This document shows positions 40,113 through 47,003 of a stretch of DNA of 58,286 nt, piece after piece. The stretch is from an uncultured Pseudomonadota bacterium. GTDB lineage: Bacteria > Pseudomonadota > Gammaproteobacteria > Ga0077536. The stretch lies in assembly GCA_903825645.1 (NCBI GenBank), contig CAIKBL010000044.1, positions 1 to 58,286 on the forward strand, in the 5' to 3' direction. The notes below the pieces were generated by a model. The model saw only the letters and a list, made by a program, of their open reading frames with translations. It made no database searches and was not told the origin of the DNA. The position numbers and the translations under genes were made by a program. Position 1 is the stretch's first letter. Every line of letters starts with the position of its first letter.

Positions 40113-41666
40113 ATGGTCACTGTCCTGTTGATCGTTTTTCGTGAGGCGCTCGAAGCTGCACTCCTCGTTGGGGTGGTTTTTGCCGCCACCCGGGGGATCC
40201 CCGGACGCGGTCGCTGGATCGGTTTCGGGATGGCCGGCGGCGCCATCGGGGCCCTGCTGGTCGCCGCGGGTGCCGAGCAACTCACGGCGGCGCTCGAAGG
40301 GATCGGTCAGGAAATCTTCAACGCGGGAGTGCTGGGTCTCGCGGTCGCGATGCTCAGTTGGCACACCCTGTGGATGAAAGCCCATGCGCGAGACATGATC
40401 AACGCGACGCGCGCGCTTGGCGAGTCGATCAGCATCGGTCAACAACCGCTGTATGCACTGGCCATTCTCGTTGGCCTCGCCGTGCTCCGAGAGGGCTCGG
40501 AAATCGTGCTGTTCCTGACTGGACTGTCCGCCGCGGGCAGCGTCACGCGCGGCGGGCTTCTGGCGGGCGGCGTCCTGGGTCTGCTCGCCGGCGTGGGTGT
40601 CGGCGGCGGGGTCGCCTGCGGGTTGCTCCGCATGTCTGTGAAACACCTGTTCGGGATCACGAGCGCCTGGATTGCCCTGCTGGCGGCCAGTATGGCCGCC
40701 CAGGCGCTGGCGTTCCTGACGCAGGCAGGACTTATCGCCGTCCTGACCGAGACCGCTTGGGATACCACGGGTTTCGTGGCCGACCAGAGCATTCCCGGAC
40801 AGGTACTGCGGGCATTGTTTGGTTACATCGGCGCACCGATGAAGATTCAGGTCCTCGCCTATGTGAGTGTCGTGGTAGGCCTCGGTCTCGCGCTGTGGCG
40901 TCCCCCGCTGCTGCGCCAACGGGCCCTCTCGATCTTAGTCGGGACGCTCGCCGTGCTTGCCGGCATGATGCCGATCCGACCGGCGCGTGCGGACTTCCAG
41001 GTCTATTCGCCTTATGTCGAGCAGGGTGCCTGGGAGTTTGAATTTCGCGGCACCCACTCGTTTGATAAACGGGCGGCACAAAATGCGGCGCAGGGTTATC
41101 TCACGGAAATCGGTTATTCGCCGACCAGTTTTTGGCACACCGCGCTGTTTTTTGAGGCCGAGGGCGTCGCTGCAAACCACCTGCGCGCCTCGGAATTCGC
41201 TTGGGAGAACCTCTTCCAGCTCACGGAGCCGGGGCAATATTGGCTCGATCTCGGCGCGTACATTGAGTATGCCAAGGGGCTTTTTCACGCGAACAACAAC
41301 GCCCTGGAATGGAAAATCTTGGCGGAGAAAGCGGTTGGGAACTGGACGTTTACCGTCAACCCGATCTTCAGTCAGGAATTCGGACGCGGTAGTGCGCCCG
41401 GCGTTCAGTTCGGCTATGCCGGGGGCACGCATTATCGCCTCTCTCCTTTTTTTGAACCCGGCTTCGAGGCCTATGGTTCCCTCGGAGAGCTGGCTCATGC
41501 CCTGCCGGGAGACCTGCAGCAGCACTGTCTCGGGCCCGACCTTCGCGGTCAGGTCCGGATCGGGCGTGGGAAACTCGAATATAACGTGGGCTATCTTTTC
41601 GGTTTGACGCCGAATACGCCCCAAGGTGCCGTGAAACTCACCCTGGAATACGAAGTCCGCTTCTGA
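40113..41666 (+). CDS. FTR1-family iron permease fused to a C-terminal outer-membrane-type beta-barrel domain
   Basis: Residues 1-265 form an FTR1/EfeU permease with seven likely membrane helices and both iron-binding motifs, REALE at 10-14 and REGSE at 126-130. The reading frame then continues in place of a stop: residues 268-293 read as a signal peptide (RQRALSILVGTLAVLAG then PARA before DFQVYSP), followed by about 220 residues of alternating polar/hydrophobic strands (WEFEFRG, WLDLGAYIEY, YEVRF) ending in Phe, as in outer-membrane barrels. In most genomes I would expect these as two genes. The fusion may be cleaved by signal peptidase after ARA. AAAGG precedes the ATG. It follows the cupredoxin gene under the Fur box. 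Confidence 0.82.
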   Translation: MVTVLLIVFREALEAALLVGVVFAATRGIPGRGRWIGFGMAGGAIGALLVAAGAEQLTAALEGIGQEIFNAGVLGLAVAMLSWHTLWMKAHARDMINATRALGESISIGQQPLYALAILVGLAVLREGSEIVLFLTGLSAAGSVTRGGLLAGGVLGLLAGVGVGGGVACGLLRMSVKHLFGITSAWIALLAASMAAQALAFLTQAGLIAVLTETAWDTTGFVADQSIPGQVLRALFGYIGAPMKIQVLAYVSVVVGLGLALWRPPLLRQRALSILVGTLAVLAGMMPIRPARADFQVYSPYVEQGAWEFEFRGTHSFDKRAAQNAAQGYLTEIGYSPTSFWHTALFFEAEGVAANHLRASEFAWENLFQLTEPGQYWLDLGAYIEYAKGLFHANNNALEWKILAEKAVGNWTFTVNPIFSQEFGRGSAPGVQFGYAGGTHYRLSPFFEPGFEAYGSLGELAHALPGDLQQHCLGPDLRGQVRIGRGKLEYNVGYLFGLTPNTPQGAVKLTLEYEVRF

Positions 41667-41780
41667 GCCCGAACGGGCTAAACGCGCACGCCGTTCCGCC
41701 AGCACGGCATAGGCTTCCCTTGACTAGCATCGCCCGTTAGAGTGCCTTCGCGAATTTCGCGTTAATTTAGGAGCGCTCCC

Positions 41781-42962
41781 ATGCGCGTATCTACGGTTCT
41801 CTATGACGATCGGATCACGGAGGGTCTCGAAGCGGAAGCGATTGGCGATCAACTTTGGCTGAGCCCCGCCGCGATGACCGCCGCGACCGGTTGGAAACTC
41901 GAAACAGAAGGTCTTTGTAAGGGCGACGCCTGTGTGCGCACTGACACCCAGTGGGTCGATGCAGACGGTCGGGTTAATTTATCGGCATTTGCCGCGCATA
42001 TGGGCCAACCAGTGACGCGTGAAGACGCGCACGGTGTCTGGGCCTTTGGTACCTCGGTCAACGCGCGACGGGATGCCTTGTTCTCACTCAACGCGCCCGA
42101 GTTCACGCTGCCCGACATCGACGGCAACCTCCATTCGCTGTCTGATTATCGCGGCAAGAAGATATTCATGTACTCATGGGGTTCTTACTGAGGCTGTAGT
42201 TTTGACTTGTCCGTGTGGCAGGCAGTCTACGAAGAGCTGAAGGACGAAGGACTCGAAATTATTGCGGTGGCATTCGACACGGCCGGCAAGGCCGCGGTGG
42301 AAGCGAAAATCAGGGCGGCAGACTGCGCAGAGCGACCCGCGATGCTTGCGCGCCTGATGGGCTGGAATGACGATTTGTGGGCGCGCCAGGCACCCCCGAC
42401 CTATCCTTGCCTGATTGATGAAGCGCATGTAGTCGCTGAGCTGTATGGCATGACCAACGTGCCTCAGGGCGTGTGGATCGACGAAAACGGCCGGATTGTG
42501 CGGGCCGCAGAGTCTGCCGGAGCTTATGACATGGTGCACCATATGAACCGCGCTACGTTTGAAATTCCGGATGATGCAGCGGAAGCCGGTATCGCCATTC
42601 GTGATCTCTACATCAATGCGTTGCGCGATTGGGTACGCAAGGGCGCCAGTAGCGCGTATGCCTTGCCGGCTAATGAAGTGAGGCGTCGGATGCGAGGACC
42701 AAGTGAAGCGGACGTCCGTGCGGCGACGCACGTGCACATCGGCCGTTATCTATACGGCAAGGGTGCGATTGAAGGCGCAAAGTTCCACTTCAAGGAAGCT
42801 GTACGGCTTTGTCCTGACAGTTGGAATTATCGTCGTCAATCAAACATGCTCGATCCGCAGAGCATCGGCGAGTTGAATGCTGGTCCCGATTTTTGGGAGG
42901 CCATCGACGCGTTGGGCGGCAAAGCGTTTTATCCGGCAGCGGATTTCAGCAGCGCCGGCTGA
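41781..42962 (+). CDS. Predicted selenoprotein: redoxin (AhpC/TSA, thioredoxin fold) with in-frame TGA at the catalytic Cys
   Basis: Two open stretches in the same frame are separated only by TGA at 42189-42191. Read through, they give 393 residues: an N-terminal domain (GLCKGDACV, residues about 1-110), a thioredoxin-fold redoxin (APEFTLPDIDGNLHSLSDYRGKK, then YSWGSY-U-GCSFDL) and a C-terminal TPR-like helix pair (IGRYLYGKG...HFKEAVRLCPDSW). The TGA is codon 137 and falls where Cys homologues, as I remember them, have the first Cys of a WCGC motif; Cys139 follows two residues later. AGGAG precedes the ATG. Alternatives are a nonsense mutation, a sequencing error or a split pseudogene. Against these, coding pattern and domain continue without a shift on both sides. 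Confidence 0.8.
42189..42230 (+). promoter_or_regulatory. Candidate bacterial SECIS element directly after the in-frame TGA
   Basis: Downstream of the TGA the mRNA can fold as an imperfect hairpin: GTA (42196-42198) with TAC (42228-42230), a U-rich bulge, GACT (42204-42207) with AGTC (42224-42227), and an upper CC/GG pair closing a G-first loop GTGT at 42213-42216. The loop begins about 21 bases after the TGA, inside the range known for bacterial SECIS elements. The upper stem has mismatches, so the fold is plausible rather than proven. Confidence 0.45.
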
Positions 42963-42968
42963 GCGAGT

Positions 42969-43006
42969 GACCGGGAGGACGTATTAGGCGCCCTCCCGGT
43001 CTGTTT
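42969..43006 (+). terminator. Rho-independent terminator after the selenoprotein gene
   Basis: A perfect 10-bp inverted repeat GACCGGGAGG / CCTCCCGGTC with a 13-base loop is followed by TGTTTG. It starts six bases after the stop codon at 42960-42962, which supports that this stop, and not the TGA at 42189, is the natural gene end. Confidence 0.8.
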
Positions 43007-43018
43007 GTCGCATCGGCG

Positions 43019-43552
43019 CTAGCGTCGGGTGATTTCCGGAGCGAGCGTTTCTGTCGGATTCGGTAACCGAACAACCGGTTCAAAGGGCGGGTTATGCCAA
43101 CCGTCCGATCCGGCGGCCGAGAGGCGTCGGTTCTTAATCCGCCAACCCACGGCCGTCAAGACCAAACGATCGTGGTATCGACCCCAGAGGTCAATCCGCC
43201 GGCCATCCGCCGTCGCGAGATGCCATGCGTAAACATAGGCTGTCGATTCAGCCGATCCGTCCCCCGTAAAGCGAATACGTACATTCGAGAGATGATGGCT
43301 GGTCGCCGTGAAGGCCGCCAGGGTCTTGGCGAACATGCGCGCCAGATTATCCCGGCCGATCACCGCATGGCGTGAGCCGAGTTCAAAGCAGCCATCAGAA
43401 GCGAAGACTTCTGTCACGAGCGACGCCGGATCATTGCGATCGACAAAATGACAGTAATCCTGCAGGGTCTCGGTGATCCGCTGACGGTGCACGATCTCCC
43501 ACAAGGTTCGGGCGTTGTCCTGCAACGCGGCGTGGTTCGATTGATTGTCCAT
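43019..43552 (-). CDS. NTF2-like / SnoaL_4-family protein
   Basis: The 177-residue product is a second NTF2-fold protein: RITETLQDYCHFVDRNDPASLV as first helix, FASDGCFELGSRHAVIGRDNLARMF, SHHLSNVRIRFTGDGSAE and DGRRIDLWGRYHDRLV as strands of the half-barrel. GGAGA precedes the ATG. Proteins of this group are dehydratases, isomerases or binding partners in ring or steroid catabolism. It shares only modest pattern similarity with the one at 12267. It converges on the selenoprotein gene. Confidence 0.75.
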   Translation of the reverse strand: MDNQSNHAALQDNARTLWEIVHRQRITETLQDYCHFVDRNDPASLVTEVFASDGCFELGSRHAVIGRDNLARMFAKTLAAFTATSHHLSNVRIRFTGDGSAESTAYVYAWHLATADGRRIDLWGRYHDRLVLTAVGWRIKNRRLSAAGSDGWHNPPFEPVVRLPNPTETLAPEITRR

Positions 43553-45245: not shown

Positions 45246-47003
45246 CTACCGAGCCCCTGTCCTCATCATAGCGGCCACAGTGTCCTTGATGGCGTCCACG
45301 CGCGCCAGCGCGGCGCGTCGACCACTTTCGATCATCCGCTCCGGGTGGTCAAAATCGAACGCCCCGCCCGGCTGCAACAGATCCGGCGTGATCACGATGT
45401 CCGCCTGCAAGGCCTCGAGCGTCGACCCGTAGGAGCCAAGGAGCTCCCAGGCAGCGCCGAGCACGCCGCGGAAGCCGAACAGGCGATTGATGCGTGCCTG
45501 CAGGCGAGCGCGTCGCTCGGCTCGGAAGACGGGATCTTCACCCTGGCGCGCGACCACATTGACGGCGATCCGAACCCCGCAGCGCCGGCGATCGAGCGCC
45601 TCGACCGGTACGCGGGACACAATGGCCCCGTCGATCAGAAGCCGCTCACCGTAGGCTACCGGCGGTAAGAAGCCCGGTACCGCCGAAGTCCCGAGCACGG
45701 CCGGGACCAACAGACCTTCATCGAGGATCACCCGCTCACCGGCGATCAAATCCGAGGCGACCACCGCAACCGGACAACGCAGATCGGCGAACGTCGCCTG
45801 ACCAAACACCGCATCCGCCGCCCGTTGAATACGTTGGCCCCGGAACACCGAGCTCTTCGGCCACCAGGTCGTATCCCGTACCTGGCGATTGGACCCGAGG
45901 AATTCGCGGAGGTGTCGTGCGCCCTCCACCGCACTCGCGGCATGGGCCACGGTAAGCGCTGTGATTCCCCCCATGCTCGTGCCGCTCAGGCAATCGAGCG
46001 GGATCCCATGCGCTTCCAGTGCCTCAAGGACGCCCGCATGGGCAAAGCCGCGGGCCGCACCACTCGACAGGGCCACCCCGACCTCGCAGAACGTGATGTA
46101 GCGCGCCAGGTGGTCGAGGGACAGATAGGCATTGCGATCCCAGCCCGTTGCGCCGGCGCAACGGGCAAGCTCGGCCGGGGAAAGCTGAAACGCCCAGCGT
46201 CCCCGCTCGTGCCATGGCCGCTCACCGAGGAGCACCCGTGCGTAATCCGCCGCACCGGCACGCGCGTATGGCGCCTCGTCTGTGATCGTCGCGCCCGGTG
46301 CCGTCTGCACCTCCACCACGACATCTTCCGGCATCAGGACGGCTTCCAGACCCCTCAGCGCGGCCGGCGGAAGCACCATCAACAGCATTTCATCTTCACT
46401 CGCGGCCTGGCGCCAAGTCTCAATCGTCTCCCGCGCGGGGGGCGTGCCGGCAGGGCTCAGTCCTGCCGCAAGGCCGACTGCCGCCGAGCCGGGTGCATAG
46501 TGTTGGATCCCCCGCCACAAGGTCTGGGCGAAGGTCGGGACGTCCAAGGTGGGGTCGGCGGCGGTCATGACCACTACCCCCGGGCGGCGGCCATCTTGTC
46601 GGGTGCGATACCGCAGACGCTGAATCAAAAGCCCGGTCAAGGCACGATGCAGGGCTGGCTCCTGATCCATCCACTGAAGAAAAGTCGACCTGTCCAGCCC
46701 ATAGGTGACCGTGTCCCGGATCGCGACCAGCGTCGCCGCAACTGGTAAGCCGGTGAGCAGCGACATCTCGCCGAAAAATTGGCCCGGTCCGAGGATAAAG
46801 CCCTTGGGAAGGCCCGGACCTTCCCCCGCGGGCTGGACGCGCGCGGCACCGGCCGCGATCGCATGGAAATATCGTCCGGGCTCACCCGCGCGGAGCATGA
46901 TCTCGCCTTGCTTATAGGCGTGCCGAGACACCTTCGTGCGGATCCGAAGCAACGCGGCGTCAGACAACGCAGCAAAAAAAGGGATCTCGGCCAACTCAAG
47001 CAT
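45246..47003 (-). CDS. Patatin-like phospholipase with N-terminal cNMP-binding domain (NTE/RssA type)
   Basis: The 585-residue protein has a cyclic-nucleotide-binding domain at about 1-115 and a patatin domain from about 310. The patatin part has the oxyanion loop SSGAARGFAHAGVLEAL, the nucleophile in SGTSMGG near residue 342 and the catalytic Asp in IDGAIVSRVPV near 455. The cNMP cassette reads FGEMSLLTGLPVAATLV and lacks the usual phosphate-binding Arg, so ligand binding may be lost. It should hydrolyse phospholipids or lysophospholipids at the membrane. AAGGAAA precedes the start. It diverges from the thiolase gene. Confidence 0.88.
   Translation of the reverse strand: MLELAEIPFFAALSDAALLRIRTKVSRHAYKQGEIMLRAGEPGRYFHAIAAGAARVQPAGEGPGLPKGFILGPGQFFGEMSLLTGLPVAATLVAIRDTVTYGLDRSTFLQWMDQEPALHRALTGLLIQRLRYRTRQDGRRPGVVVMTAADPTLDVPTFAQTLWRGIQHYAPGSAAVGLAAGLSPAGTPPARETIETWRQAASEDEMLLMVLPPAALRGLEAVLMPEDVVVEVQTAPGATITDEAPYARAGAADYARVLLGERPWHERGRWAFQLSPAELARCAGATGWDRNAYLSLDHLARYITFCEVGVALSSGAARGFAHAGVLEALEAHGIPLDCLSGTSMGGITALTVAHAASAVEGARHLREFLGSNRQVRDTTWWPKSSVFRGQRIQRAADAVFGQATFADLRCPVAVVASDLIAGERVILDEGLLVPAVLGTSAVPGFLPPVAYGERLLIDGAIVSRVPVEALDRRRCGVRIAVNVVARQGEDPVFRAERRARLQARINRLFGFRGVLGAAWELLGSYGSTLEALQADIVITPDLLQPGGAFDFDHPERMIESGRRAALARVDAIKDTVAAMMRTGAR

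Follow-up and report, generated by a model that had tools for sequence, protein, structure and literature searches.

The window, a stretch of DNA of 58,286 nucleotides, carries a gene in which the in-frame TGA at 42189 is very probably decoded as selenocysteine (Sec) and whose predicted product is of the kind described by the NCBIfam family NF041054. The Sec decoding itself is about as certain as sequence allows, and the gene is, judged in this way, a member of a catalogued, predicted selenoprotein family. Gene callers that treat UGA as a stop split this selenoprotein in two.

Reading frame and conservation of the UGA codon

The predicted gene and its flanking signals are:

41781–42962, + strand: selenoprotein gene, 393 residues with Sec137 (TGA), ending at stop TGA 42960–42962
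42189–42191, + strand: in-frame TGA, selenocysteine 137, with Cys139 (TGT 42195–42197) two residues later
41768–41774, + strand: Shine-Dalgarno-like TAGGAGC, 5' of ATG 41781, read in the sequence
42969–43001, + strand: strong hairpin, probable terminator (61-nt fold, z −2.85)

Starting at ATG 41781, 136 codons can be read before the TGA (ORF 41781–42191), and a further 256 follow in the same frame up to the terminal TGA. These counts bear out a previous sequence-only reading, which had described two open stretches of one frame split by this TGA alone and a 393-residue product on read-through. The ribosome-binding site that it placed ahead of the first half is likewise visible as TAGGAGC. Its terminator after the second half stands in part: the hairpin is strong, but few T residues trail it and it is absent from the list of a simple terminator scan. 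A sigma-70 promoter scan and an Rfam search over 41600–43100 returned no match. With its own ribosome site and trailing hairpin, the gene seems to stand alone. Upstream of it is a gene for an FTR1-type permease; downstream, on the opposite strand, is a SnoaL-like one. The FTR1/EfeU-like permease match at 40113–41666 covers residues 1–265; for the other ~250, Pfam gave nothing at E ≤ 0.001. At 45246–47003, a cyclic-nucleotide-binding domain is fused to a patatin-like phospholipase.

From named genomes, 112 relatives were confirmed with a profile built on 23 TGA-containing members, and 80 of these relatives were examined at the site. The alignment at residue 137, proposed in the earlier reading, places TGA/Sec there in the window and in all 80 examined relatives, always within U-G-C; the codon was shown by script in 77 of the 80 and by reading in the remaining three. 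Ahead of U-G-C stand W-A, W-G, W-S and A/H-A variants. Record titles of the relatives name Gammaproteobacteria, Deltaproteobacteria, Rubrobacter, Binataceae, Chloroflexi, SAR324, Rokubacteria, Acidobacteria, Reyranella and other Rhodospirillales, and those of the family include soil, freshwater, groundwater and marine bacteria. No Cys-for-Sec homologue in the long architecture occurs among the 80 relatives read of the 112 confirmed; of the two patterns in the scan, one was written with Cys at this position and the other lay elsewhere in the protein, and distant Cys forms could escape a search profile built on TGA members. The Cys homologues with C-G-C that had been expected at this site did not appear, and the Cys proteins that can be aligned have CxxC instead. 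The lack of Cys at the site in the relatives examined makes the family well suited to studying why Sec in some cases cannot be replaced.

Within the window's GTDB family, strong matches occur in 25 of 36 genomes, the other 11 being without a member. One TGA is present in each of 31 site-spanning matches (a hand count, on contigs that are partly those of the 80 relatives), and 30 extracted rows read WGSYUGC or WSSWUGC. Four relatives of the window (G002, G010, G011 and G014) have both WGSY and WSSW members; the window's own genome has one full-length member only. A second family, that of genome G523, has a match in 71 of 75 genomes and SelB in 71 of 75. Its 79 matches include 78 that span the site, all 78 with TGA by hand count. 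WASWUGC was found in 30/30 site-spanning matches fetched of these 78, the other 48 being known by stop count, and this motif suggests that the G523 family is Reyranellaceae. Gene and selB do not coincide everywhere. In the window's family, G015, G026, G032 and G035 have a member and no SelB match over the cut-off, SelB being in pieces in G015 and G032. In the G523 family, the gene is present with no selB match in G794, G795 and G820, and selB is present without the gene in G825, G832 and G833, many such mismatch genomes being fragmented assemblies.

More widely, a phylum sample of 398 genomes held two full-length members, both with TGA, and in 18 more genomes the match was confined to the redoxin part and contained no stop; the one motif read among these was CxxC. 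A class sample held members in 3 of 369 genomes, all of the window's family. Plasmid and phage records gave no match at the limits used, and viral contigs gave one partial redoxin match. The copy in the complete chromosome of Rubrobacter marinus (L077, 4001–5164) keeps the UGC site and has two TAG codons in its N-terminal frame; it is a broken gene or contains sequence errors.

These data bear directly on what the TGA could be other than Sec. Were it a true stop, the locus would encode two separate proteins, be a pseudogene or carry a sequencing error. A TTG start, the earliest in the downstream half, is available at 42207, and the Rubrobacter marinus copy, with its TAG codons besides the TGA, suggests that broken copies may exist. 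Such a stop is nonetheless highly improbable, given an in-frame TGA in 80/80 examined loci from several phyla and in 78/78 of the G523 family, a protein conserved on both sides of the codon and constrained silent sites past it; we rejected it on the retained TGA and the conserved flanking protein. General reassignment of TGA in this genome, for example to Trp, would also account for one in-frame TGA and is less probable still: the gene's own end is a TGA (42960–42962), the genome has selA, selB, tRNA-Sec and selD, and ResA has Cys, not Trp, at the site. It was rejected on these three grounds. Decoding as Sec is the reading we retain.

Hairpin downstream of the UGA and the Sec machinery

The candidate recoding element lies shortly after the UGA:

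42206–42222, + strand: SECIS hairpin, stem 42206–42211 with 42217–42222, loop CGUGU, extra loop pair 42212–42215 around GU

A stem-loop with G first had been placed at SECIS distance. The stem-loop is there, but G is second in its loop (42212–42216), not first. The bacterial SECIS model, as given in an excerpt of PMC13188914, has a loop of 3–9 nt, an upper stem of 4–16 bp, a distance of 16–37 nt from the UGA, G in the first two loop positions and MFE ≤ −7.5. The window's hairpin fits this outline with a loop of 5 nt, a stem of 6 bp, G second, 20 nt and, for the 52-nt stretch, −13.1 kcal/mol. The model in that excerpt also has a loop pair around G[G/U], and the window's pair is one base tighter.

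Support for the hairpin comes from conservation, not from fold energy, which for the 52-nt fold equals that of shuffles (z 0.00). The six stem pairs (18–23 with 29–34, column 1 being the U of UGA) form in 73/73 distinct sequences; many stem bases are fixed by the protein, and the silent positions carry the weight. The codon for Leu143 is NTG (CTG or TTG) in 70/70 unique sequences, compared to 948/1815 (52%) elsewhere in the same genes. Ser, where present, is TCC in 26/27 against 182/968 elsewhere, and CAA Gln codons co-occur with TTG in 3/3 cases, preserving the pair. Silent positions 24 and 27, each the third of its codon, are C-G in 56 sequences, G-C in 12, A-U in two and otherwise in three. 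This loop pair has 17 double-change cells, against 3.5 ± 1.5 in shuffles, and 99.4% of cells are paired, against 94.5%. When the partner is slid as a control, paired cells drop to 32–63%; the +3 slide, in which just 32.5% of cells pair, retains 12 that are double-change. Of five covariation measures, two do not rise above shuffles, namely pairs with double changes at 302/500 and pair types at 125/500, and since the sequences are related, shuffle counts are not probabilities. With covariation at silent hairpin sites, the data make a clean argument from evolution that the UGA is decoded as Sec.

Contig C44, which is the window, belongs to a 4.1-Mb genome that is 99.5% complete, and all four genes whose search had been suggested, selA, selB, selC and selD, are present in that genome. 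A SelA match (C69:115167–116279), a SelB match (C69:116342–118258) and tRNA-Sec (C69:118324–118415; 69.1 bits, cut-off 47; ARAGORN anticodon tca) form one cluster at 115167–118415, the tRNA lying ~65 bases past the end of the SelB match; the SelD match is on C34. Twelve additional tRNA-Sec-like matches were found, of which ARAGORN typed seven as Ser, Gly, Arg or Cys tRNAs. Among these, the match on C38, just above the cut-off at 48 bits, is a tRNA-Ser. SelB and tRNA-Sec would decode UGA 42189 as selenocysteine, guided by the hairpin, whose stem begins after 14 intervening bases.

Both formate dehydrogenase alpha-chain (FdhA) matches in the window's genome (C90:13269–15296 and C75:5265–7343) are without TGA, and the NF041054-like selenoprotein may therefore be one of the reasons why this genome keeps the Sec machinery. 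Across the window's family, the listed FdhA matches over the cut-off are also without TGA, so the main FdhA does not use Sec here; among those listed, only a weaker match (G014:C238) has one.

Family membership and domain architecture

NF041054 (WAxxUGC_long) matches the read-through protein with 298.2 bits (E 9e-89) in two stretches that cover both halves. This is 1.8 bits below the cut-off of 300, and three sister genomes score 300.3 to 305.5. The model matches all 72 aligned rows, window included. The family, named ‘ResA-like WAxxUGC motif-containing protein’, has the same U-G-C, the same length class and a match that runs from the N-terminal and redoxin parts into the C-terminal part. The window differs in its motif, WGSYUGC, where A of W-A-x-x-U-G-C is replaced by G and W, U, G and C are retained, and in an insertion of ~24 residues after the motif. 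By these features, its protein would be a WGSYUGC branch with ~24 extra residues at the edge of the NF041054 model.

The sequence-only reading had called this a new selenoprotein. The selenoprotein part is strongly supported; the family was already known, for NF041054 names the motif and PMC2398784 had listed a UGC redoxin by 2008. That ocean survey reports a ‘UGC-containing Prx-like’ selenoprotein with 46 selenoproteins and 855 Cys homologues, and describes it as commoner in non-marine samples, which agrees with the freshwater and groundwater records among the relatives here. A UGC-containing Prx-like or TlpA-family selenoprotein is also listed in an excerpt of PMC9312934, there under predicted families, and in that of PMC13188914. 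As presented in these three excerpts, it has the same AhpC-TSA or TlpA-like domain with U-G-C; the 855 Cys homologues given in PMC2398784 contrast with none seen here in the long architecture. It is likely identical to NF041054, matched by description rather than accession. Within the literature searched, which did not cover subscription journals, we found no bench work on a family of this type and no paper that mentions NF041054 by name.

The product would comprise three parts, an N-terminal domain with Cys46-x4-Cys51, a ResA/TlpA-like domain with Sec137-Gly-Cys139 and a helical C-terminus:

41781–42080, + strand: N-terminal domain, residues 1–100, beta-rich, invariant Cys46 and Cys51 (GLCxxxxC), from alignment and model
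42081–42515, + strand: ResA/TlpA-like thioredoxin-fold domain, ~residues 101–245, from Pfam, structure model and fold matches
42318–42395, + strand: insertion of ~24 residues within residues 180–205, in 22/72 aligned rows
42570–42914, + strand: C-terminal helical part, residues 264–378, weakly TPR-like, from Pfam and model

Pfam places a single AhpC-TSA/Redoxin domain at residues 104–240, across the TGA, as had been read from the sequence. The AlphaFold2 model of the read-through protein has a mean pLDDT of 93.9. Searched against the PDB, the middle domain matches 1su9 (E 9.8e-10), and ResA- and DsbE-type chains top the fold list (Z 14.0 to 12.5), including 3gl3 (Z 14.0, rmsd 2.2, 139 aligned) and ResA 2f9s (Z 13.2, rmsd 2.4, 137 aligned). 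ResA/TlpA oxidoreductases (1st9, 2f9s, 3gl3) share this thioredoxin-fold domain, and Sec137 aligns with the first Cys of their CxxC, while Cys139 stands one residue ahead of the place of their second Cys. U-G-C is thus one residue shorter than the CxxC of ResA, and an active-site CxxC is absent. ResA, in contrast, has no Sec, and its solved chains are without the N-terminal CxxxxC domain and the C-terminal helices. ResA works outside the membrane. No signal peptide is seen in the sequence of the window's protein, which therefore probably works in the cytoplasm.

The N-terminal CKGDxC domain of the earlier reading does exist, and neither of its two cysteines varies. All 80 rows that have the N-terminus contain the C-x4-C pair (74 by regex, six by reading; L128 is cut off). 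Modeled alone, the domain has a pLDDT of 90.5, with Cys46 and Cys51 on neighboring strands (45–47 and 50–52). Pfam, PDB sequence and PDB fold searches gave it no clear relative: the best Foldseek E against the PDB was 1.9, and the fold list is led by an usher N-terminal domain (Z 5.7, rmsd 3.0, 78 aligned), below the trusted level. The TPR-like C-terminal part is upheld to the extent of a weak TPR_2 match, but this is under the cut-off (17.1 bits versus 27), with 27/72 members at E ≤ 0.01.

Three alignments were made: A1 with 23 of 30 collected rows, A2 with all 81, and A3 with 72 of the 81, from which truncated or ambiguous rows and rows whose start was not found were left out (L077, L093, L105, L108, L114, L118, L125, L128 and L130). 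Invariant residues in the 72 rows include Cys46, Cys51, Sec137, Gly138 and Cys139. The insertion, ~24 residues by alignment columns, is present in 22 of the 72 rows. The window falls in a well-supported set (99/97) of 20 insertion-bearing rows, at the base of which lie two records, one deltaproteobacterial from groundwater and the other from Rubrobacter. The remaining two insertion rows (L079, L080) fall nearby and the tree needs two changes; a single origin of the insertion, found in 17% of bootstrap trees, is compatible with these data. Nine metagenome bins are titled Klebsiella pneumoniae or Asaia (L060, L065, L071, L075, L079, L123, L124, L125 and L131). All but L125 are in the tree, where they fall among environmental Proteobacteria or in other lineages, and their titles therefore look wrong.

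Possible chemistry of the Sec-Gly-Cys site

A redox function is suggested by the modeled fold. The selenolate of Sec137 would attack an oxidized substrate, either a peroxide or a disulfide, and would then form a selenenylsulfide with Cys139, which the N-terminal dithiol, or thioredoxin, would re-reduce. This cycle, with the N-terminal Cys pair as a relay, is put forward tentatively and falls somewhat short of an even chance; the role given to the Cys pair is a proposal. A more specific version, in which an obligate cytoplasmic selenoenzyme, never a Cys enzyme, exchanges electrons between an unclassified N-terminal cross-strand Cys pair and Sec-Gly-Cys, is rather unlikely. If true, the protein would contain its own selenium relay with two stages, retained by nearly every genome of some lineages (71/75 in the G523 family).

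The protein could instead be a peroxiredoxin-like peroxidase, with Sec as the peroxidatic residue, and not a thiol-disulfide reductase, a plausible but lesser prospect. Sec favors peroxide reduction, the Pfam AhpC-TSA match reaches 50.7 bits, and peroxiredoxins such as 1qmv are among the fold matches (Z 11.9, rmsd 2.8, 147 aligned). ResA- and DsbE-type chains rank above these, albeit by a small margin, and the U-G-C spacing differs from that of usual peroxiredoxins. Rather than cycling as redox pairs, the four chalcogen residues might bind a metal or metalloid as a selenolate/thiolate trap, and C-x4-C and U-x-C are indeed jointly invariant in 72/72 rows. The thioredoxin fold and the ResA alignment point to redox chemistry, however, and no recurrent metal-related neighbors were seen among the 14 largest neighbor clusters, which makes such a trap improbable. 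The same 14 clusters gave no substrate hint for the redox cycle; two correspond to the frame of the gene itself or to the antisense of that frame, and the others are mainly from Reyranella-type loci, one of these clusters also including a gammaproteobacterial locus. As read from sequence, Reyranella-type loci (L101–L119 and similar) have, within ~5 kb of the gene, a thiamine-diphosphate-enzyme-like neighbor to one side of it and xanthine-dehydrogenase-like genes to the opposite side.
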